A DNA stretch of 64,000 nt. It comes from Phycisphaera sp. Its GTDB lineage: Bacteria > Planctomycetota > Phycisphaerae > Phycisphaerales > Phycisphaeraceae. Position 1 is the first letter of the stretch. Every line of letters begins with the position of its first letter. Below, piece by piece: positions 38,677 to 49,302 of the stretch. The position numbers and the translations under genes were made by a program. The DNA lies in the NCBI GenBank assembly GCA_016125215.1, contig WGMF01000028.1:124001-188000 (forward strand), in the 5' to 3' direction. The notes under the pieces are model-generated. The model worked only from the letters and a program-made list of their open reading frames with translations, ran no database searches and had not been told where the DNA came from.

Positions 38677-38946
38677 ATGTCCATCACAGCCGAACGCAAG
38701 ACCCAGGTCATCGCAGACTTCCGCCGATCCGAACAGGACTCCGGCTCGCCCGAGGTGCAGGTCGCCCTGCTCACCGAGCGCATCAACTCCCTCACCGACC
38801 ACCTGCGCAACCACAAGAAAGACCACGCCTCCCGCCGCGGCCTGCTCATGATGGTCGCCAAACGAAACAGCCTGCTCAAGTACCTGTCGAACACCAACCA
38901 CGACAGCTACACCCAGCTCATCGGCAAGCTCGGCCTGCGCAAGTAA
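38677..38946 (+). CDS. rpsO: 30S ribosomal protein S15
   Basis: The 89-residue protein is a full-length S15: [14 protein letters not shown], the [39 protein letters not shown] block binding 16S rRNA, and the [12 protein letters not shown] end. The ATG at 38677 is preceded by CAGGAGC. S15 autoregulates its own translation in other bacteria; the 268-base upstream region may hold such a structure but none was identified. pnp, often the next gene, lies 8 kb away here. Confidence 0.97.
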
Positions 38947-38949
38947 CCC

Positions 38950-38999
38950 CCGGAAGTTGGCCCCGGAAGTTGGCCCCGGAAGTTAAGAACCCGGAAGTT
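38950..38999. repeat. Four tandem CCGGAAGTT words after rpsO
   Basis: Exact copies start at 38950, 38963, 38976 and 38991; the first three are spaced by 13 bases as CCGGAAGTTGGCC. They lie between the rpsO stop and its terminator, so they are in the 3' untranslated region. Confidence 0.9.
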
Positions 39000-39024
39000 A
39001 AACTCAACTTTTTGAACCTCCCAG

Positions 39025-39055
39025 CCCCGCATGAACATGCGGGGTTTCTTTTTAT
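39025..39055 (+). terminator. Intrinsic terminator of rpsO
   Basis: CCCCGCATG and CATGCGGGG pair as a nine-base stem with a minimal loop, followed by TTTCTTTTT. It lies 80 bases after rpsO and just before the convergent sulfatase stop. Confidence 0.9.
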
Positions 39056-39058
39056 CAT

Positions 39059-40513
39059 TCAGACTGTCGGGTGCGTGTAATCCTCCGCGCGGACCTGCGG
39101 GACGGTCCATGCGGCGTTCTTTTCGGGGTAGAGCGCGCCGACATCCTTGCGCCAATCGACGAGTTTCTTGTGGAGCGAGCGCGTGATCTCGGGTTCGGCC
39201 TTTGATCGCTCGCGCACCTCGCTCGGGTCGTCGGGGAGGTGGTAGAGCTCGATGCGACCGTCTTCGAAATACTCGATGAGCTTCCAGTCGCCGTCGCGGA
39301 TGGACGAGGAAGGCGTGCCGCCCTGGTTGCCGTAGTGGGGGTAGTGCCAGAAAACCGGGCCGCGCGGCGGGGTTTTTTCTTCGCCACGCAATCTCGGCAT
39401 GAAACTCACGCCATCGACGTGCTGTTTGGGGTCGAGCGGCAGGCCCGCGGCTTCGAGGAACGTCGGGTAAAAATCGGGGCTGGTCACCGGCTCTCGGCAG
39501 ACCGACCCCGCTTCGATCACACCCGGCCAGTGGCAGATCAAAGGCTCACGCACGCCGCCCTCTTCGAGCCAACCCTTGCCCTCGGCCAGCGGGAGGTTGC
39601 AGGTCGGTGAGCCCTCGCTTGTGGCCAATCCGCCGTTGTCGGAGGTGAAGACCACGAGCGTGTTGTTTTCGATGGCCTGCTCGTGGAGTGTCTGCACCAG
39701 TCGCCCGACACAGGTGTCCATGATCTCGACCATGGCGGCGTAGACGGGGTTGGACTGGATGACACGGCGCATGACGCGGCGCTGGCCGGTGGGATCGGAG
39801 GGAACGGGTTCGCCGGGGATGATCGCCTCAGCCCTGTCGAGGCCGAGTTTCCTGGCTTTCTCGTGGTACTTCTCGACGAGCGCTTCGGGCGCTTCGATGG
39901 GTGTGTGGACGAGGTAGTGCCAGAAGTTGAGGAAGAAGGGTTTGGACCTGTCACGTTTCTCGATCAGCTCGCGGGCTTTCTGCGTGAGGTACTCATCGAG
40001 ATAAGTGCCCTCGGGGACGGGCGCGTCCTTGAGCGGGGGGAGCTTCCACGGCGCGAAGTAACCGCCCTTGCCCATCGGTGCCCCGTGCTCGCAACCGCCG
40101 ACGTTGACATCGAAGCCGCGCTGCTGGGGCAGTGATCCTTCACCGCCCAGGTGCCACTTGCCGACGTGCCAGGTCTGGTACCCGCCGTCACGCAGGGATG
40201 TGGGTAGCGTGCGTTCGCTCGCGTGCAGGTTGTGCAGGTAAGGCGCCTCGACCATCCGGTACTTCCGGGGGTGGGCCTTGCCGCTGACGTCGATGTAATC
40301 GGTGATGCCGACGCGCGGGGGGTATTTTCCCGTCATCAAGCTGCCGCGCGTCGGGGAGCAGACGGGGCAGGCGGCGTACGCATCGGTGAAGACCATCCCC
40401 CCGGAAGCCAGGCGATCAAGATGGGGCGTTTCATAAAAAGTACTGCCGAAGCAGGACAGGTCCCGCCAGCCCAGGTCGTCTGTGAGGATGAAGAGGATGT
40501 TGGGTTTGGGCAT
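39059..40513 (-). CDS. Sulfatase
   Basis: The 484-residue protein is an alkaline-phosphatase-superfamily sulfatase. The metal ligands Asp-Asp appear in ILFILTDDLGWRDLSCFGS (residues about 5-23), and the nucleophile Cys to be converted to formylglycine lies in PVCSPTRGSLMTGKYPPRVG (about 52-71). The C-terminal part has the SDNGG stretch. The target is likely a sulfated polysaccharide or glycan. No N-terminal signal peptide is visible, since the family's first strand begins at residue 4, so the enzyme appears cytoplasmic or its export signal is missing. No formylglycine-generating enzyme gene lies near. The ATG 40513 has no strong ribosome site. Confidence 0.92.
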   Translation of the reverse strand: MPKPNILFILTDDLGWRDLSCFGSTFYETPHLDRLASGGMVFTDAYAACPVCSPTRGSLMTGKYPPRVGITDYIDVSGKAHPRKYRMVEAPYLHNLHASERTLPTSLRDGGYQTWHVGKWHLGGEGSLPQQRGFDVNVGGCEHGAPMGKGGYFAPWKLPPLKDAPVPEGTYLDEYLTQKARELIEKRDRSKPFFLNFWHYLVHTPIEAPEALVEKYHEKARKLGLDRAEAIIPGEPVPSDPTGQRRVMRRVIQSNPVYAAMVEIMDTCVGRLVQTLHEQAIENNTLVVFTSDNGGLATSEGSPTCNLPLAEGKGWLEEGGVREPLICHWPGVIEAGSVCREPVTSPDFYPTFLEAAGLPLDPKQHVDGVSFMPRLRGEEKTPPRGPVFWHYPHYGNQGGTPSSSIRDGDWKLIEYFEDGRIELYHLPDDPSEVRERSKAEPEITRSLHKKLVDWRKDVGALYPEKNAAWTVPQVRAEDYTHPTV

Positions 40514-40630
40514 GAGAGAATCTTTCTACCGTTGAGAAAATGATCGCATCGAACCGGACAATCTATGTCGGATCGATCATCGGGTCGAGCAGGAGAGATG
40601 ATTGCCGGATTTCATTAAGACAAGAAACTC

Positions 40631-40794
40631 ACCACAGAGAACACAGAGGGCACAGAGAAAATCGGGAAGAAGACTTATTCGCAGATTACGCAGATTCACG
40701 CAGATTCAGATGCCCAGGCGTGGAGATGCTTCCCGCTGCCCTCTGACATCATCCATCATCCATTCCCTTGCCCCCTCTCTGTGTCCTCTGTGGT
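40631..40794. repeat. Modular repeat with ACAGAG outer arms
   Basis: The 305-base gap 40514-40818 holds ACCACAGAGAACACAGAGGG at 40631 and its inverse ending CTCTGTGGT at 40794. Between them are an unpaired GCAGATT series near 40679-40708 and a CATCATCCATCATCC tract near 40747-40762. No gene is visible in the rest. Confidence 0.8.
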
Positions 40795-40818
40795 GAAATC
40801 CCGCTCCTCGCACGCAGA

Positions 40819-43800
40819 TCATGGCGACGCGGGCATGGCCGCCCGGAAGGACTCAGCCGCCTGTTGCCACTCGCCGGTGTGCTGGTGGATCAGGCCCATG
40901 AGGTAGTGGGCGTCTTTCGTTTCGGGGTGTTTGTCAAGAACAGCTTCGACGATTGGCCGGGCGGCGTCCCACCGGTCCAGCGCGATCAACGACCGGGCAC
41001 GCAGGACATCGGCCACCGGCTCGGGCCGAGAGGCCGCGGGCAGCCGATCCAGCGCGTCGATGGCCTGCGCAGGCTGACCCGAATCCACCAGCACGCGCAC
41101 GAGTTCCATCGCAAGCGACGGGTCCTCCGGGTGCAGCGGGATCGCTTCACCGAGCACCTCCAGCGCCTTGGGGTATTGCTTTTGTTCCACGAGTCTGCGG
41201 ACGACACGGAGGTATTGCTCCGCCTCGACGCCGTGGTGCGCACCGACGGTGCCATTGTTTTGTTTACGCATCGCGTCGCGGGGGTCTTCGCTGGTGCGGG
41301 CCAGGTTGAGGTACGCCTCGACGGTGAGCGCAAGAGTACGAGGCGCGCCGCCGAGCCTGGCCACGACCCGTCCGTCGGGTTCGAGCACCACCGCCATCGG
41401 CAGCGCCTTGGGCGTCTGCCCCGTCACATCCGCCGGCGGCTCGGAGACGATGCGCCACGACGCATCGCACACAGCCCGGACCTCATCTAACAACGTGTTA
41501 TCCCCCGCCAGGTCCGCCACCACCACGACCCGCTGGGCGTCCGGGTCGTGGTCCTTGCGATCGAACCAAGATCGCACAGCCTTGAGCGTCTGCACGTCCG
41601 ACTCGGGCCGGCCGCGGACGAGCAGCAGGAGCGTCGGCTTGTCTTCGAAGGGGAGTGTGATCGGTTGGCCGAGTGCGTCCCGGCCTTCCCATTGCATGGA
41701 CCGTTCATCGGGCGGCGGGGGCTGGGCACGGACGCGCTGCGCGGTTTGGCCGGCCTCGCGCTGCTCGTCGATGGGCACGGGTTGGTCACGGTCGTACCCG
41801 AAGGGCACGTGGCACGCCGAGACGCAGCGCCCGCCGGTGTCGGTGCGCGTGAACTCGAGCGGTGCCAGCCAGTCGTTGTAGGGGACCTGAGTTTTCACCA
41901 GCCGATCATTGGGGCCGGCGTGGGCGTCGTGGCAGACGCGGCAGGTTCGGCCGTAGTTCTTGTTGACGTGCAGGGCGTGGAGGTTGAGGCTGCCGTTACG
42001 GAACCCGGTGGGCGACTCCTGGCCCTCGGGGATTTCGCGCTGGTCCGCAAGGTGTTCGTTGTGGCAGGCAAAACACATCGAATACGACTCGTTCTTGAAC
42101 GGGGCGTAGTAGCCGGCGGGGAAGGCACCGACGAGGAGGTTGACCCGGTTTCCGCCGTGCGGGGTGTGGCAGCCGCGGCACTCGCCCTCGGCGATCGGGC
42201 CGTGCTTGTGCAGCGCGTTGTTAGTGACATCCTGTATGGCGGCGATCACGCGGCCGTCTGGCGCGTGGGTGGGCTTGTCGTGGCAGGTGAGGCAGAGCGT
42301 CTCGGAGCGGTCGACAAGGAGCGAGGCGGCGTTCCCGCCGTGCGGCGTGTGGCAGGTGATGCACGAACCGCCCTCGGTTACGGGCGAGTGGGACACCGTG
42401 GCAGAGGCCACCTCCTTTGCGGTCTTTTCGTGGCACTGTTCGCAGAGCCCAGGTACGGTGGCGGTCAGGGCCTTGGGGAAGGCCGAGCCGTGCGCGTCGT
42501 GGCAGCGCTCGCAGCCCTCCTTGAGCGCGTCGTGTGCGAAGGTCGCTTCGCCCAGTTGCCTGCGGAACTCGTCGTGGCAAGTCATGCACAGGTCGGGGCC
42601 GGCCGCGTCGAGGAGCTTGGGGTACATCGAGGCGTGCGGCGGGTGGCAGGCGACGCAATCCCCCTCGCCGACGGGCGTGTGCATGAAGACGCGGGACGCA
42701 AGGATCGGGTCGTGGCAGCGGTTGCACAGCGCCTCGGTCGAGCCTTCACGGGTCATGCTGTGGTCCCGTCCACCGTGCGGGTTGTGGCAGCCCAGGCACT
42801 CGCCGCGCGTGACGGGCGCGTGGACCACGGGCATCGCCTTGACATCGAAGGCGTGGCAATAGGTACACAGGTCCTCGCGCTCCCGGCGGAGCTGGAAGGT
42901 GTGCCTTGCCTCGTCGGTCAACTCGTGGCACACGTCGCACGCCTGCACCGCCAACGGTCCGTGGACGACGGGATAGGACATCACCGCGACGTGGCAGACT
43001 TCCGTGACGCAACTGGGCGTGGCGGTCATCGGGCGATCAACGGTCGTCATCGTGGCCTTGCCGTGACGGACCGGTTCGGAGAGGCGCAAGGGGATGGTGT
43101 CGGTCTCATGCGTGCGGGACGCGAGATCGGCGGTCTGGCGTTTGTTGTGAAGGACGGATTGCCCCAGGTGCAGCACGCGGGGCCCGCTCGCGGTGGTCGG
43201 CTCACCGGGCAGGTCGTTGGGGAAGGTGACGAACCGGTTGAGGGCGTGGCACTGCGCATCGCCGCAGGTCGGCAGCGCGGTGAAGGTCATGTCGCCGTGA
43301 CACTCCGAGCAGGGCAGGTCCCTGTGATTCTTGTCGAGGGATTGGCCTGTCATCGCGTGCTCGAACTTCGGCGGGGTATCGTCGTCGGACTTGTGGTGGC
43401 AGTGGTTGCAGGTCTGCTGGGCGTGGCAGGCGACGCAGGGTTCGTGGCTCTGTTTCCATGCGATGGCGGGCTCGAGCGTGGCGTGACGGTTGGCTTTGTT
43501 CTTGCCGTTGTGACACGAATCGCAGGTGTCGCGCACATGGCACGCGGCGCAGCGGATGCCGAAGGTCTTGACGTGTTCGTCGTGACGGAACGTGACCTTG
43601 CCCCCGGCCGCCGGTACGTAGCGCACGTCATAGCTCTTCACGGTCGGCGGATCGATCGGCGGGTGCATGCGACCGATGATGTCGTCGGGCGTCGGCAGCG
43701 CTTCGGGCTCGTGACCGTGGGCGGGCTTGTGGCAGACCACGCAATCGTTCTCACCCGTCCAGCCCTTGTGGCAGTTCAGGCACTGGCGGTGGTACGCGCC

Positions 43801-44277
43801 CTTGAGCGAGGGCATGTGGATGTCCGACTCGGTGGCGTCGATCTTGTGGCAACTCTTGCACGCGGGGACCGTGTCGGCCTGTGCTTTATCCGGGGGGGCG
43901 GGGTGGTCGGGTGCAGGCGGCGGTGCCGGTCCATCTTCGTGCGCATGGGCGTGCCCGTTGCGGATGGCGATCACGTCGGGCTTTTTGTGGTGACAGGTCT
44001 CGCAACCGTCCCACATCTGGGCCATGTCCGCGTGAAGTTTGTGCGAGAAGGGCACCGGCTGATACCGGTCAGCCAGCTCATCGAGCATCACCGTGTCGGG
44101 CGGGCCGACCGTCTGCGTGAGAGCATCGGCAACCTGCGCGGGAGGCTGCTGCGCCACGGCGATGCGCGGCAAAGCGAACCATGTCATTACGATCCACAAC
44201 ACCGCCCACGTCGCTGGCCCAAGCGTCCGCCACACCCCATCACGACCGCTAAACATGGTCAGGCCCGCATGCATCAT
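40819..44277 (-). CDS. Giant multiheme cytochrome c with thioredoxin-like and TPR domains
   Basis: The 1152-residue protein has a signal peptide (WAVLWIVMTWFALPRIAVAQ). Its cytochrome part (about residues 90-815) carries 22 CxxCH heme motifs plus three unusual ones: CGDAQCH and CVTEVCH (CX4CH) and CVSACH (CX3CH), so up to 25 hemes. Many motifs occur in the paired-heme pattern of NrfB/doubled-CXXCH proteins with HGGN/HGG segments between. From about 865 to 985 lies a thioredoxin-like fold without a CxxC active site, and the last 110 residues form TPR repeats. It should act as a periplasmic electron conduit. The start ATG 44277 overlaps the TGA of the ferredoxin-NrfD gene by one base, so the two are translationally coupled and probably one electron-transfer module. 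Confidence 0.9.
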   Translation of the reverse strand: MMHAGLTMFSGRDGVWRTLGPATWAVLWIVMTWFALPRIAVAQQPPAQVADALTQTVGPPDTVMLDELADRYQPVPFSHKLHADMAQMWDGCETCHHKKPDVIAIRNGHAHAHEDGPAPPPAPDHPAPPDKAQADTVPACKSCHKIDATESDIHMPSLKGAYHRQCLNCHKGWTGENDCVVCHKPAHGHEPEALPTPDDIIGRMHPPIDPPTVKSYDVRYVPAAGGKVTFRHDEHVKTFGIRCAACHVRDTCDSCHNGKNKANRHATLEPAIAWKQSHEPCVACHAQQTCNHCHHKSDDDTPPKFEHAMTGQSLDKNHRDLPCSECHGDMTFTALPTCGDAQCHALNRFVTFPNDLPGEPTTASGPRVLHLGQSVLHNKRQTADLASRTHETDTIPLRLSEPVRHGKATMTTVDRPMTATPSCVTEVCHVAVMSYPVVHGPLAVQACDVCHELTDEARHTFQLRREREDLCTYCHAFDVKAMPVVHAPVTRGECLGCHNPHGGRDHSMTREGSTEALCNRCHDPILASRVFMHTPVGEGDCVACHPPHASMYPKLLDAAGPDLCMTCHDEFRRQLGEATFAHDALKEGCERCHDAHGSAFPKALTATVPGLCEQCHEKTAKEVASATVSHSPVTEGGSCITCHTPHGGNAASLLVDRSETLCLTCHDKPTHAPDGRVIAAIQDVTNNALHKHGPIAEGECRGCHTPHGGNRVNLLVGAFPAGYYAPFKNESYSMCFACHNEHLADQREIPEGQESPTGFRNGSLNLHALHVNKNYGRTCRVCHDAHAGPNDRLVKTQVPYNDWLAPLEFTRTDTGGRCVSACHVPFGYDRDQPVPIDEQREAGQTAQRVRAQPPPPDERSMQWEGRDALGQPITLPFEDKPTLLLLVRGRPESDVQTLKAVRSWFDRKDHDPDAQRVVVVADLAGDNTLLDEVRAVCDASWRIVSEPPADVTGQTPKALPMAVVLEPDGRVVARLGGAPRTLALTVEAYLNLARTSEDPRDAMRKQNNGTVGAHHGVEAEQYLRVVRRLVEQKQYPKALEVLGEAIPLHPEDPSLAMELVRVLVDSGQPAQAIDALDRLPAASRPEPVADVLRARSLIALDRWDAARPIVEAVLDKHPETKDAHYLMGLIHQHTGEWQQAAESFRAAMPASP
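41487..41501. repeat. Palindrome CTAACA-N3-TGTTAT inside the cytochrome gene
   Basis: A near-perfect copy (one mismatch) of the CTAACA-N3-TGTTAG motif; on the coding strand it spells an Asp-Asn-Thr-Leu-Leu-Asp segment with TTG TTA leucine codons. Confidence 0.6.
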
Positions 44278-46658
44278 CACACGTCTTTCACCGCCTGCGA
44301 GTGCGCTGGCTGGACGGTCGTCGGCGAAAGGATCGGCAGAGTGTTCACCATCACCCGGTAAACGAGCATCAGCGCCGCCACCAGACCCGCCGACACCATG
44401 AACTCGACCGCCGACGGGAAATAAGCCTTCTGCGCATACGGCGGGTGGTACGCGATCACGAACACGTCAAGTCGATTGAGCACCACACCCAGGATCACCA
44501 GCAGACACGCCACCGCAAGCTTCATCGGTGACTTACGCACCCCCGCCCCAGGAAGCAAAATCATCACCATCGGCAGCACGACACCGATGGCCAGTTCGAT
44601 CACCCACATCACCCCCAGCATCGACCCGTCGAGCAGGTAGACCCACGTCCCGCGCCACGCCATGTCCCCGATCTTCAACGCAAGGTAGAGCGACAAAAAC
44701 ACCGGCGCGTAGAGCGACAAAGGCCCCAGCACGTCCATCTCCGGCTTACGCCTCACCGACCACGACGCAAAGAGCATCGTGAAGATCACCATCGGGAACC
44801 CCACCATCGCCGCCGAGAGCAGGAACATCAAGGGCGACAAGGGCGACCACCACAACGCGTGGAGCTTGTAAGGCGCGATGACCATCAGGTTGCCCAGCGA
44901 CGACTGGTGGAAGCACGAGAGCGTCACGCCAAGGATCAGCAGCGCCGGCATGACGCGTTCGAGCCACTTGTGCGCGACGCCGGCCCACCGCGCCAGGCGC
45001 GGGAAGCGCTTGTTCTCACCCATGACACGCTCGCAGAGGATGGGCATCAGCTCGGCGTACTGCACATTGAGGTAGATCATCACGCAGATGCCGACCTCGA
45101 AGAGCACCGAGTTGACCTGCCACATGCTCGGGAGCGTGGGGTGCCAGAGGTTGTACCACCGCCCCAGGTCCGCCAGCAGGCCGGGCACGTAGAACGTGTA
45201 ACCCAGTAACGCGGTCACCAGCGCCGAGCGCGCGATGGCGTGGTAGCGCTCACGGTGGAAGATGTGGACCAGCGCCGCGGTGACAAAACCGCCGCCGGCC
45301 AGGGCGATGCCGCTGCCCACGTCCATGGCGATCCACAGGCCCCAGGGGTGCTGCTGGTCAAGGTGCGTCGTCGCTCCGATGCCCACGACGAAGCGATAGA
45401 TCGCCGCCAGCGCCCCCACAGCCACGACGCACGCCAGCGCGATGAACCCCGGTGTCAGGAGCGGCTGCGCTACCGGCGCAGCGTGGGCTTCATGATGGCC
45501 CGCCTGACCGTCGTACGACACTTGATTAGCATCGTGGTGAACGTCACGAAGTCCGTGATCCGTCTCGTGCGCGGTCGCGTCCGCTTCCCACGTCCCGGCG
45601 TCGTGTTCGTCGTCGATCACCACGATCTGGCCCGACGGCGTTAACAACCCGGCACGCGCCTGTACACGTCCGTTGACCGACAAGGGCACGAGCTTGTGCA
45701 GCAAAGGCACGCCCGGTTGATGCGGGTGATTTTTTGACGAATGATCCAACCCGGACACTTGGGCTGCCCGACGCGTCCGGGTGACATACGCCGCCGTCGC
45801 CAGCGTGCCATACAACGCGATCGGCGCGATCCAGTGCTTGAACACGCCGTGCTGGATCGCCTCGGTGAGTTGACCCGGCGGCGCGTCGCCCAGCGTCAGG
45901 AATCCCGCCCGCTCAAACGGCACCGGCGAGAGGTACATCCACGAGGTTCCGCCGACCTCGTGCTCGCCGTAGACGTGGTCGGTGTATTGTTCGGGGTTGT
46001 TGGCGATGCGCTCGTGCGCCAGGGCAAGCAGCTCGTCACGCTTGCCGTAGACCAGCGCCTGCCGGGGGCAGGCCTCGACACACGCGGGAAGCTTGCCTTC
46101 ACGGGTCCGGTCGGTGCAGAATTCGCATTTGCGCACGCGCGGCGTCAGGGCGTCCCGATACTCATACGTCGGCACCTGGAACGGGCACGCCACCATGCAG
46201 TAGCGACAACCGATGCACTTCCACGCGTCGTAAACCACCGCGCCACAGGGCTCCTTGGTCAACGCCCCCACGATGCACGCCGAGACACAGGCCGGCTCGT
46301 TGCAGTGCAGGCAGTTGACCTTGGCGTAGACCGGCGACTCGAGCCCCTCGACCTCAAAGGCGTTGACCACCGTCATCGCGTCGGGGGTCGGGCGACGCTC
46401 CTGCGCAAAGACAGACTGGTCGTCATACGACTCGATCGGCCCGGTCTCGATACCGTTGCTCTCCCGGCAGGCGTATTCGCACAACCGACAACCCACGCAC
46501 ATCGTCAGGTCCACGAGCACGCCCTTGATCTCGCCCCGCCGACGCAGCATCAAGCCATGACCATGGCCCGCCTTAGCCACCGACGGCAGGCCCCCACCCA
46601 GGCCCGCTGCGCCCACGCAGGCGGCCTGTTTGAGAAATTCTCTTCTTGCAATTGGCAC
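44277..46658 (-). CDS. Tat-exported four-cluster ferredoxin fused to NrfD/PsrC membrane subunit
   Basis: The 793-residue protein begins with a twin-Arg signal (RREFLKQAACVGAAGLGGG) and a ferredoxin domain with sixteen Cys in four clusters: CVGCRLCEYAC, CLHCNEPACVSAC, CIGCRYCMVAC and CEFCTDRTREGKLPACVEAC, as in NrfC/DmsB/HybA. A linker with one membrane helix (about 278-296) and a His-rich stretch (about 355-400) leads to an NrfD/PsrC-type domain of about nine helices (about 405-785). NrfC and NrfD are usually separate; here they are fused. The likely job is quinol oxidation and delivery of electrons through the iron-sulfur clusters to the downstream multiheme cytochrome. The start GTG 46658 has GAGGGC upstream. 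Confidence 0.9.
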   Translation of the reverse strand: MPIARREFLKQAACVGAAGLGGGLPSVAKAGHGHGLMLRRRGEIKGVLVDLTMCVGCRLCEYACRESNGIETGPIESYDDQSVFAQERRPTPDAMTVVNAFEVEGLESPVYAKVNCLHCNEPACVSACIVGALTKEPCGAVVYDAWKCIGCRYCMVACPFQVPTYEYRDALTPRVRKCEFCTDRTREGKLPACVEACPRQALVYGKRDELLALAHERIANNPEQYTDHVYGEHEVGGTSWMYLSPVPFERAGFLTLGDAPPGQLTEAIQHGVFKHWIAPIALYGTLATAAYVTRTRRAAQVSGLDHSSKNHPHQPGVPLLHKLVPLSVNGRVQARAGLLTPSGQIVVIDDEHDAGTWEADATAHETDHGLRDVHHDANQVSYDGQAGHHEAHAAPVAQPLLTPGFIALACVVAVGALAAIYRFVVGIGATTHLDQQHPWGLWIAMDVGSGIALAGGGFVTAALVHIFHRERYHAIARSALVTALLGYTFYVPGLLADLGRWYNLWHPTLPSMWQVNSVLFEVGICVMIYLNVQYAELMPILCERVMGENKRFPRLARWAGVAHKWLERVMPALLILGVTLSCFHQSSLGNLMVIAPYKLHALWWSPLSPLMFLLSAAMVGFPMVIFTMLFASWSVRRKPEMDVLGPLSLYAPVFLSLYLALKIGDMAWRGTWVYLLDGSMLGVMWVIELAIGVVLPMVMILLPGAGVRKSPMKLAVACLLVILGVVLNRLDVFVIAYHPPYAQKAYFPSAVEFMVSAGLVAALMLVYRVMVNTLPILSPTTVQPAHSQAVKDV

Positions 46659-46897
46659 GGTAAAGCCCTCAAAAGCCTGTGCCCGGCCCCGTCAGCGGTC
46701 TAGCTGCAATAATAATACCAATTTATCTTATTTTTGTCCCCCCCCGCCGCTTTCCAACGCCACCTCGCCTCGTTAGAATCTACCGGATTCTCGTCCGGCA
46801 CCCGCTTGTCAATGGGTGGCTGGGCCAGATGGCAGTCGGCTCGGTCGGCTTGCGTGCCCTCACACGCGACCCGGCATGAGCCCTCTGTCTTCTGAGC

Positions 46898-46925
46898 CCG
46901 GCAATCAATCGCCGGACTTTTCGAG
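46898..46925 (+). promoter_or_regulatory. Hairpin in the pnp leader
   Basis: CCGGC and GCCGG pair around an eight-base loop and are followed by ACTTTTCG, about 80 bases before pnp. It could be an attenuator or an RNase target, as pnp leaders carry hairpins in other bacteria. The rest of the 46659-47001 gap is AT-rich near 46700-46735 and probably holds divergent promoters, with no clear boxes. Confidence 0.45.
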
Positions 46926-47001
46926 GTGCGCCCTGTCCCAGGCGGGCTCTGTCGCCGTCGTGCGCACCGGACCTATCACCAGAGCAGAGGAAACTTTACA
47001 G

Positions 47002-49302
47002 ATGGCGTATCACAAAGTGTCGTTGGAACTCGGCGGTCGCACGTTGACCATCGAGACCGGTAAATGGGCCAAGCAGGCAGACGGCTCGGTCGTCGTCACC
47101 TATGGCGAAACAATGGTACTCGGCACCGCGGTCCGGGCCGCCCCACGCGAGGGCATCGACTTTTTCCCGCTCACCGTCGACTACCGCGAGAAATTGAATG
47201 CCGCAGGAAAATTTCCGGGCGGCTTCCGCAAACGTGAGGGCGCTCCGAACCAGAAAGAAACCCTGACGATGCGCAACATCGACAGGCCCATTCGGCCGCT
47301 CTTCCCCAAGGGCTACTTCGACGAGGTGCAGGTTCAGTGCTGGGTCCTCTCCGCTGACGGGCAGAACGAACCCGACGTGCTCGCGGGCATCGCCGCCTCC
47401 GCGGCGCTCTCCATCAGTTCCATCCCGTTTGAAGGCCCCGTCGGCAATGTCCGCATCGGGCGCGTTGACGGACAGTTCGTCGTCATGCCCACCGTGGCCC
47501 AGGGCGAATACTCAGACCTTGACCTGTTGCTCTGCGGGCACAAGGACGGCTTGAACATGATCGAGGTCGGCGCGCACGTCCTGCCCGAGAACGTCGTGGG
47601 CGACGCGATCGAGTTCGGCTACGGCTACGTCAAACAGATTGTCAGTCTCATCGAAGACCTCGTCTCTAAGGCCGGCAAGGACAAAGTCGCCGAGCTGACG
47701 CTGCCCGACGACGACATCGTCGCGCTCGTGAAGAGCAAGCTCGCCGAGCCCCTGCGTGCCGCCAAGACCAGCCCCGGCACCAAGCTCGAACGCGCCGAGG
47801 CCGTCAAGAACGCCATCAGCACCTTCCTCGATAACGAGTTCCCCGCCCTGCCGACCGACGCGACGTATCACCAGGTCGTCCAACACAAGGACCGCAAGTC
47901 GCAGGCCAAACTGGCCATCCACGACCTTGAGGAAGTCATCACCCGCGAAGTGATCCGCACCGGCCAGCGCACCGACGGACGCAAGCTCGACGAGCTGCGC
48001 CACCTCGAATGCGAGGTCGGCGTCCTCCCGCGTGCACACGGTTCAGCCGTCTTCACACGCGGTGAGACGCAGGCCCTCGTCACCGTCACGCTCGGCACCA
48101 ACAAAGACGAGCAGATCGTGGACGGCCTGGGCGAGGAATACGCTGAGAAGTTTTACCTGCACTACAACTTCCCACCCTTCTCCGTCGGCGAAGCCAAACG
48201 CATCACCGGCCCCGGTCGGCGCGAGATCGGCCACGGCAAACTCGCGGAAAAAGCCCTCGTCCCCATCCTCCCCGCCGTCGAAGACTTCCCCTACACCGTC
48301 CGCGTAGTCAGTGACATCCTCGAGTCCAACGGCTCGTCGAGCATGGCCAGTGCCTGCGGCGGCACACTCGCGCTGCTCGACGCCGGCGTCCCCATCAAGG
48401 CCCCCGTCGCCGGCATCTCGATCGGCCTCATCAAAGCCGACGAACCCTCGCAGCAGGACATCTACCTCACCGACATCCAGGGCGAGGAAGACCACTTCGG
48501 CGACATGGACTTCAAAGTCACCGGCACCACCGAGGGCATCACCGCCATCCAGCTCGACCTCAAGATCCGTGGCCTGAGCCTCAAGCAAATCCGTGAGACG
48601 CTCACCCACGCCCGCACCGCCCGACTCGTCATCCTCGACAAGATCAAAGAGGCGATCCCCACACACCGCGCGACCATCAGCAAGTACGCCCCGCGCATCC
48701 TCACCATCCACATCCACCCCGAGAAGATCGGCAAGCTCATCGGACCGGGCGGCAAGACCATCCGCGGTCTCGAAGCCGACACTGGCGCCAAGATCGAGGT
48801 CGAAGAGGACGGCACGATCCTCGTCTCCGGCGTGGGCGAGGGCAAGGCCGAGCGCGCCATCGAAGAGATCGAGAAGCTCTGTGCCGAGGTCAAGATGGGC
48901 GCGACCTACACCGGCCGCGTCACCTCGATCAAGGACTTCGGCGCGTTCATCGAAGTCATCCCCGGACAGGACGGCCTGTGCCACATCTCCGAGATCAGCG
49001 ACGGCTACGTCAACCGCGTGGACGACATCGTGAAGCTCGGCGACGAGGTGAAGGTCAAGGTCATCAACATCGACGAACAAGGGCGTGTGAAGCTCTCACG
49101 CAAGGCCGTCATGGCCGAGACCGGCGAGACCGACGCCGGCAAGGTGCCCCAGGGCAATTCCGGGGGCGGTGACGGCAACCGGGGCGGCGGCAACCGAGGT
49201 GGTGGCCGCGGCGGACGCGGCGGTCACGGGGGCGGCGGTGGTGGTGGTCGCCGAGACGACCGCGACCGACACGACGACCGTCAGCCGGTCACAACCGAGT
49301 AA
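47002..49302 (+). CDS. pnp: Polyribonucleotide nucleotidyltransferase
   Basis: PNPase degrades RNA from the 3' end with phosphate. The 766-residue protein has two RNase PH domains (about 1-225 and 325-545) with GGFRKREG, the catalytic DVLAG/SGSSSMASACGGTLALLDAG segments and FGDMDFKVTGT, then a KH domain (about 560-620, LIGPGGKTIRGLE) and an S1 domain (about 630-700). The last 45 residues form a Gly/Arg-rich tail (GGGNRGGGRGGRGGHGGGGG). Such RGG tails can bind RNA and are not part of the usual PNPase. The ATG 47002 matches the family start; AGAGGA lies eleven bases upstream. A terminator follows. Confidence 0.97.
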   Translation: MAYHKVSLELGGRTLTIETGKWAKQADGSVVVTYGETMVLGTAVRAAPREGIDFFPLTVDYREKLNAAGKFPGGFRKREGAPNQKETLTMRNIDRPIRPLFPKGYFDEVQVQCWVLSADGQNEPDVLAGIAASAALSISSIPFEGPVGNVRIGRVDGQFVVMPTVAQGEYSDLDLLLCGHKDGLNMIEVGAHVLPENVVGDAIEFGYGYVKQIVSLIEDLVSKAGKDKVAELTLPDDDIVALVKSKLAEPLRAAKTSPGTKLERAEAVKNAISTFLDNEFPALPTDATYHQVVQHKDRKSQAKLAIHDLEEVITREVIRTGQRTDGRKLDELRHLECEVGVLPRAHGSAVFTRGETQALVTVTLGTNKDEQIVDGLGEEYAEKFYLHYNFPPFSVGEAKRITGPGRREIGHGKLAEKALVPILPAVEDFPYTVRVVSDILESNGSSSMASACGGTLALLDAGVPIKAPVAGISIGLIKADEPSQQDIYLTDIQGEEDHFGDMDFKVTGTTEGITAIQLDLKIRGLSLKQIRETLTHARTARLVILDKIKEAIPTHRATISKYAPRILTIHIHPEKIGKLIGPGGKTIRGLEADTGAKIEVEEDGTILVSGVGEGKAERAIEEIEKLCAEVKMGATYTGRVTSIKDFGAFIEVIPGQDGLCHISEISDGYVNRVDDIVKLGDEVKVKVINIDEQGRVKLSRKAVMAETGETDAGKVPQGNSGGGDGNRGGGNRGGGRGGRGGHGGGGGGGRRDDRDRHDDRQPVTTE

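Follow-up and report, generated by a model that had tools for sequence, protein, structure and literature searches.

How electrons cross the periplasm, a distance of roughly 200 Å, is still debated, with diffusing shuttles set against a fixed wire. The idea of a single cytochrome crossing this space exists for PCC3 of the iron oxidisers (PMC5566968, PMC10734462). In the Nhc and Hmc complexes of Desulfovibrio, the genes for a periplasmic multiheme subunit of c3 type lie together with those for an iron-sulphur (Fe-S) subunit of four clusters and a membrane subunit of NrfD type, and Geobacter Cbc4 (CbcSTU), comprising a cytochrome, an Fe-S and a membrane subunit, has been proposed to serve quinol-linked electron export (PMC11434368). 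Here, we analyse a window of 64,000 nucleotides from Phycisphaera sp. (assembly GCA_016125215.1, contig WGMF01000028.1, positions 124,001 to 188,000), in which a multiheme cytochrome gene follows a gene for a fused Fe-S/NrfD protein. These two genes, running from position 46658 to 40819 on the minus strand, probably specify a quinone:cytochrome complex of Nhc/Hmc type made of two proteins, of which the multiheme subunit is lengthened to a periplasmic wire that would feed a porin-cytochrome system elsewhere in the genome. We assign this reading a probability of about 0.62. The Nhc/Hmc-type complex, MtrA and thioredoxin-TPR (Trx-TPR) modules are each known; what appears to be new is their combination in one operon and one chain. 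A first, sequence-only reading of the cytochrome gene had named no characterised protein with its combination of domains, and none was found in the literature searched, a weak indication given that most subscription journals were not covered.

Modules of the multiheme cytochrome

The cytochrome gene (40819..44280; all features of the two genes are on the minus strand) is an open reading frame (ORF) of 1153 residues with alternative ATG starts 3 and 6 nt inside. It contains 22 CxxCH motifs, one CX3CH (residue 819) and two CX4CH (residues 339 and 424), exactly the count of the sequence-only reading, which had placed the gene at 40819–44277. Residue-shuffled versions of the ORF hold a mean of 0.16 and a maximum of 3 CxxCH motifs, versus 22 in the real chain, and 50 of the 51 cysteines belong to heme motifs, the lone exception being C938. 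Pfam matches include paired CXXCH (E 8.5e-61), cytochrome c7/cIII and TPR. Five fused orthologues share the 22/1/2 motif count, with 25 of 25 motifs invariant among them, and conservation in further relatives supports the earlier estimate of up to 25 hemes, which we word as about 25. Sequence and a hydropathy scan predict a Sec-type signal peptide (residues 1–44; 44149..44280), in which the only hydrophobic stretch of the chain (residues 25–43) is followed by AVA-QQ. The calculated mass of the mature apoprotein is 121.3 kDa, which would rise to about 136.7 kDa with 25 hemes. The chain is a fusion of three known modules, here termed N10, M15 and a Trx-TPR module without CXXC.

The N10 module (residues 60–365; 43186..44103) carries ten motifs, nine CxxCH and the CX4CH at 339. 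In a phmmer search, the stretch with its first four hemes matches 1ofw (E 3e-10), corresponding to the final domain of nine-heme cytochrome c and of HmcA, and N10 has a partial match to the HmcA family NF045713. The tetraheme model (model 7–136) superimposes on 1duw with a VIA Z of 7.2 and a root-mean-square deviation (rmsd) of 3.0 over 91 aligned residues. By sequence and model, these four hemes are predicted to form a cytochrome-c3 domain of the nine-heme/HmcA type. The alignment then shows a poorly conserved, heme-free linker (residues 366–417; 43030..43185), which is the fusion joint.

The M15 module (residues 418–835; 41776..43029) follows with 15 predicted hemes, at one CX4CH, 13 CxxCH and one CX3CH motif, and has stand-alone paralogues. 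A full-chain AlphaFold2 model from five sequences gave predicted local distance difference test (pLDDT) values mostly below 35 in the heme part, and a second model built on 135 rows was used for that region; in it, M15 reaches pLDDT values of about 80–96, mostly 85–96. Residues 466–717 (42130..42885) form an MtrA-like core of ten hemes, which aligns with chain A of the Mtr complex (6r2q_A) over 232 of 265 residues (VIA Z 10.4, rmsd 3.8). The same chain is the sole Foldseek match of the M15 model below E 0.001 (E 8.6e-6). As a side observation, 6r2q chain A is mislabelled ‘Cystathionine beta-synthase’ in the PDB sequence file, but is really a chain of the Mtr complex. Since exactly ten consecutive motifs (472 to 701) fall in the aligned stretch and model as nearly full-length MtrA, M15 reads as MtrA with two hemes before it (424, 448; the first a CX4CH) and three after it (736, 780, 819; the last a CX3CH). 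These additions, the C-terminal Trx-TPR module and the lack of an adjoining MtrB-type porin gene set the chain apart from MtrA/DmsE. It scores 135.7 bits against TIGR03508 (MtrA/DmsE decaheme), whose cut-off is 192.2, and we rejected membership of the MtrA family proper on this score and the missing adjacent porin.

Conservation of the wide motifs was counted in an alignment of 135 rows, in which the number of rows covering each site varies. The CX4CH at residues 339–345 (43246..43266) is intact in 13/13 rows and the CX3CH at 819–824 (41809..41826) in 72/72; the CX4CH at 424–430 (42991..43011) is a heme motif in all 74 rows, with x4 spacing in 73 and CxxCH in one. As candidate distal ligands, we took non-motif histidines conserved in at least 90% of the rows covering the site, leaving out His 110/112/114 (covered by a single row) and His 293 (inside a motif, 85%). 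This gives ten in N10 (80, 83, 98, 164, 206, 233, 236, 279, 308, 319) and 15 in M15 (440, 460, 487, 502, 534, 549, 583, 597, 631, 647, 693, 708, 768, 771, 787), which for 10 + 15 motifs matches the need of 25 bis-His hemes. By their full conservation and the matching number of distal histidines, the CX4CH and CX3CH motifs are candidate covalent c-heme sites.

The sequence-only reading had regarded such motifs as rare and often in need of special heme lyases, a claim that finds no support here. Two CX4CH motifs occur in the ordinary form of cytochrome c3 (PMC10454114), the family of the chain’s own N-terminal domain, and CX3CH is found in essentially all ImcH homologues (PMC6295460), so that a special lyase need not be invoked. 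A search for CcmF/CcsBA variants found no lyase gene near the cytochrome, and a special lyase beside it was rejected. Two ResB/CcsA-type sets and further CcmF/CcmC-type genes, told apart by family match and layout only, lie on other contigs of the genome.

Prediction of the whole chain, together with Foldseek, places a thioredoxin fold (residues about 863–1010) and TPRs (1018–1150) at the C-terminus. The thioredoxin-like domain (residues about 860–1010; 41251..41703) has a ResA/TlpA-like fold in the AlphaFold2 model and in Foldseek, and the TPR repeats (residues 1015–1150; 40831..41238) are recognised by Pfam (TPR_16/TPR_19), by the model and by VIA, with Z of about 16–17 to TPR proteins including MamA. 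The Cys-poor thioredoxin fold and TPR helices of the sequence-only reading are thus borne out. The top Foldseek match of the module is E. coli YbbN (CnoX; 3qou, E 9.6e-7), in which a thioredoxin fold likewise precedes TPRs, and ResA is among the next. However, the TM-score to 3qou is low (0.29 by target) and the rmsd high, and the two domains are therefore probably arranged differently from those of YbbN. Unlike YbbN and ResA, the module is exported, fused to or beside cytochromes, and has no CXXC; the motif is found in 0 of 25 homologues. The thioredoxin domain is accordingly predicted to be redox-dead, with CXXC lost.

The upstream partner and comparison with known complexes

The upstream gene (44277..46658) ends within the cytochrome gene, with an overlap of 4 nt, and encodes a 793-residue fusion of the HmcB-HmcC/HybA-HybB kind. 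It has a twin-arginine-like RREFLK N-terminus, 16 cysteines in four [4Fe-4S] groups (54–64, 116–128, 148–158, 178–197) and an NrfD-type membrane part (PF03916, E 8e-13). Its best NCBIfam matches are HmcB (326.2 bits), HybB (299) and HmcC (252.7), with HybA also found, all below their cut-offs. The sequence-only reading had not included this partner, nor the identification of M15 with MtrA or the relatives with split genes described below.

The operon resembles the Desulfovibrio complexes in its set of subunit types and in its N-terminal tetraheme domain, which matches the last domain of NhcA/HmcA. There are, however, clear differences. The Fe-S and NrfD subunits are fused, and the cytochrome has one recognisable c3 domain at its N-terminus, followed by six other hemes, 15 MtrA-type hemes and the Trx-TPR module. 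Whereas the cytochrome subunit of NhcABCD has nine hemes, there are 25 motifs here; the operon holds no third gene such as NhcD, and HmcD/E/F-type genes are absent beside it, with neither HmcE nor HmcF in the operon. An Hmc complex proper was rejected, as HmcE and HmcF are absent from the operon and the scores fall below the HmcA/B/C cut-offs.

PCC3, with 21–27 hemes, is similar in being a single cytochrome long enough for the periplasm with few residues per heme. By definition, its cluster includes a porin, an extracellular cytochrome and a five-helix HX13H membrane protein (PMC5566968), whereas the present operon consists of the Fe-S/NrfD fusion and the cytochrome only. PCC3 proper was rejected on the NrfD/Fe-S nature of the membrane partner and the lack of a porin in the operon. 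The likeness to Cbc4 lies in its cytochrome, Fe-S and membrane subunit composition, and is one of description, not of sequence comparison. CbcS is far smaller than the 25-heme cytochrome.

The two-gene operon stands alone, with a sulfatase gene following it and pnp divergent upstream. The minus-strand block of sulfatase, cytochrome and HmcBC-type genes (window 38677–46816) sits between an rpsO-like ORF (38677–38946) and pnp (46816–49302) as if inserted; rpsO and pnp are often neighbours.

A probable extracellular-electron-transfer cluster lies on another contig of the same genome (G000 C30:48756-62870; L008, L009, L163). It encodes a CbcL-like protein (10 CxxCH and a b-type membrane part) and a NapC/MtrC-like protein resembling ImcH, both labels resting on domain matches and layout. 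Two M15 genes, a Trx-TPR gene, a 10-heme lipoprotein, NHL-repeat proteins, an open frame of 618 codons with 12 heme motifs and a putative outer-membrane barrel of 669 residues are also present. The barrel, named a putative porin from its sequence character and position, adjoins another 10-heme protein. Similar clusters occur in several relatives, and a homologue of the putative porin is found in 5 of the 6 genomes with the operon, so that an outer-membrane exit would be available in most, not all, of them. Next to the cluster (L008:5110-6453, minus) are also genes for an NtrC-type regulator and a radical SAM protein like AhbC/NirJ, and in G048 (L131) the cluster is likewise flanked by homologues of the two.

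Relatives and the split-to-fused series

Relatives were located by scanning genome contigs with an alignment query; a single-sequence pattern query returned nothing. The same domain order, in full fusion, was found in five genomes: the window, Phycisphaeraceae OFTM355 (L040), ARS64 (L041), ARS65 (L042) and Planctomycetales bacterium ZRK34 (L047), the last as a complete chromosome (CP050848). No papers on strain ZRK34 were found in the literature searched. In seven metagenome-assembled genomes (MAGs), the gene is split at the linker: behind a fused Fe-S/NrfD gene lie two separate genes, one for a 10-heme N10 protein and the next for M15-Trx-TPR with a new signal peptide of its own (L033, L043, L044, L045, L046, L048, L049). 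These loci are partly incomplete, the contig or locus ending inside M15 in L044, L048 and L049 and being cut upstream in L043 and L046. Homologues keep the C-terminal domains and their wide motifs align to heme positions, as the sequence-only reading required. Stop-codon readthrough in the split relatives was rejected because of the stop plus the new signal peptide.

In a FastTree tree of M15, the fused forms make up one clade (0.88) within a clade of all M15-Trx-TPR forms (1.0), which is consistent with one fusion event. As the tree was rooted at its midpoint, we infer the order of events. Strong matches occur in 65 of the 397 genomes of the class, mostly as stand-alone M15. Among 74 distinct M15 genes, Trx-TPR is in the same ORF in 11 and in the next gene in 35 (46/74 in all), another M15 comes next in 20, neither in 7, and one could not be judged; because the loci were retrieved by searching with the fused protein, Trx-TPR neighbours may be somewhat over-represented.

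Loci encoding HmcB, HmcC and, next in line, a 13-heme cytochrome resembling N10 were numerous in the named genomes scanned, in Zixibacteria, Ignavibacteria, Marinimicrobia, Hydrogenedentes, Krumholzibacteria, Planctomycetota and others. The second halves of these 13-heme HmcA relatives slid onto M15 in the joint alignment, and only their first halves were kept. This operon (L050-L117) is widespread in uncultured phyla, with two copies on some contigs (L056, L057, L062, L106). Other N10-M15-like fusions lack Trx-TPR and lie beside HmcB/HmcC (L103:5539-8109, L059:3969-5894, L064:6969-8813), with 25 CxxCH, 17+1 and 18+1 heme motifs, respectively; they possibly stem from an independent fusion event.

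Proposed electron path, alternatives and meaning

The proposed mechanism builds on the observed motif count and its conservation, the module identities, the operon, the split-to-fused series and the loss of CXXC. The HmcB-HmcC fusion would be embedded in the inner membrane and extend on its periplasmic face; electrons exchanged with quinone/quinol at the NrfD part would be relayed by the four Fe-S clusters. The c3-type module may dock on this complex as HmcA/NhcA does, and electrons could then run along the remaining N10 hemes into the lengthened MtrA-like wire of M15 and outward to the porin-cytochrome system on contig C30. Binding of N10 to HmcBC, an unbroken path through the linker and the outward direction are what we infer. 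With 3.4 kDa and 31 residues per heme, the heme region (residues 60–835) falls in the range of peptide-minimised cytochromes (below 5 kDa per heme), which are non-catalytic, linear and of the electron-transfer type (PMC7096707). About 27 hemes have been estimated to cross 200 Å (PMC7096707); scaling this published relation, and not model distances, to about 25 bis-His hemes gives some 185 Å for a straight chain, which would span most of the periplasm. The redox-dead Trx-TPR tail would act as a protein-binding or holdase domain of M15. A tentative extension, which we consider rather doubtful, is that the quinone pool of the inner membrane and the porin-cytochrome system of the outer membrane are wired together by one polypeptide: a 25-heme wire spanning the periplasm, held at the inner membrane by the NrfD/Fe-S complex and at its far end by the Trx-TPR head, and taking the place of diffusing shuttle cytochromes.

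Several findings weigh against a wire of this kind. No porin gene lies in or adjoining the operon, and in G025, a full-fusion MAG that is 87% complete, neither a porin homologue nor M15 paralogues were found. The single fused partner stays below the curated cut-offs for HmcB (420 bits) and HmcC (550 bits), and the cytochrome scores 62.1 bits against an HmcA (NF045713) cut-off of 400. Outside its c3 domain, N10 is modelled poorly (pLDDT about 30–65), and because the linker is heme-free and outside the model, continuity from heme 10 to heme 11 is conjectural.

The same complex might instead work in reverse as a quinone reductase, carrying electrons from periplasmic or extracellular donors into the quinone pool, as NhcABCD does from type I cytochrome c3. 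Among named proteins, the nine-heme cytochrome is closest to the N-terminal domain, and its complex is termed TpIc3:quinone oxidoreductase (PMC8076601); CbcL-type proteins are known from Fe(II) oxidisers as well as Fe(III) reducers (PMC6295460). However, no donor enzyme is encoded in the operon, be it a periplasmic hydrogenase, a formate dehydrogenase or another, and the M15 paralogues of this genome have CbcL-like and ImcH-like proteins as neighbours. Both of these families have been described as oxidising quinol, CbcL also as reducing quinone. We regard the reverse direction as unlikely. A catalytic periplasmic reductase of nitrite, sulfite, DMSO or similar would fit the frequent service of NrfD-type modules to reductases (PMC8076601) and the matches to DmsE-family models. 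It was rejected as highly improbable, given a mass per heme under the range of catalytic cytochromes, the lack of a Mo enzyme gene in the operon and conserved distal histidines equal in number to the motifs, which leave no obvious open heme site.

For the Trx-TPR module, the partner docking suggested by the sequence-only reading is a guess, and a role in assembly as a chaperone is equally open. The module could act as a built-in holdase, holding the large apocytochrome in a state that the heme lyase can use, in the manner of CnoX or of an inactive ResA fused with CcmI-type TPRs; this would be compatible with the wire reading of the heme part. The YbbN and ResA matches, the missing CXXC in 25/25 homologues, the rule that Trx-TPR follows M15 genes and a faint CcmH/CycH match of the TPR region (E 9e-4, below the family cut-off) speak for it. 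A chaperone, however, hardly needs to be joined covalently and one to one with the protein it serves, maturation of many large cytochromes takes place without a chaperone, and YbbN is cytosolic whereas this module is exported; we find the holdase plausible, if somewhat short of even odds. The possibility that the fusion itself is a gene-calling or assembly artefact is negligible. The window genome is a 58-contig assembly and in seven MAGs the joint separates two genes, but five independent assemblies, including a complete chromosome, hold the same frame without a stop, with linker residues that vary among them, and an artefact of gene calling was rejected on these open frames.

In the preferred reading, the cytochrome of a quinone complex has been fused to a lengthened MtrA, with the steps visible in living relatives. 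With this stepwise fusion, the question of a fixed wire can be tested on one protein, and ZRK34 offers a completely sequenced genome in which to do so. The finding also links the widespread, little-studied HmcBC and 13-heme operon of many uncultured phyla to cytochromes of the extracellular type, and defines a Trx-TPR module as a partner of these cytochromes.

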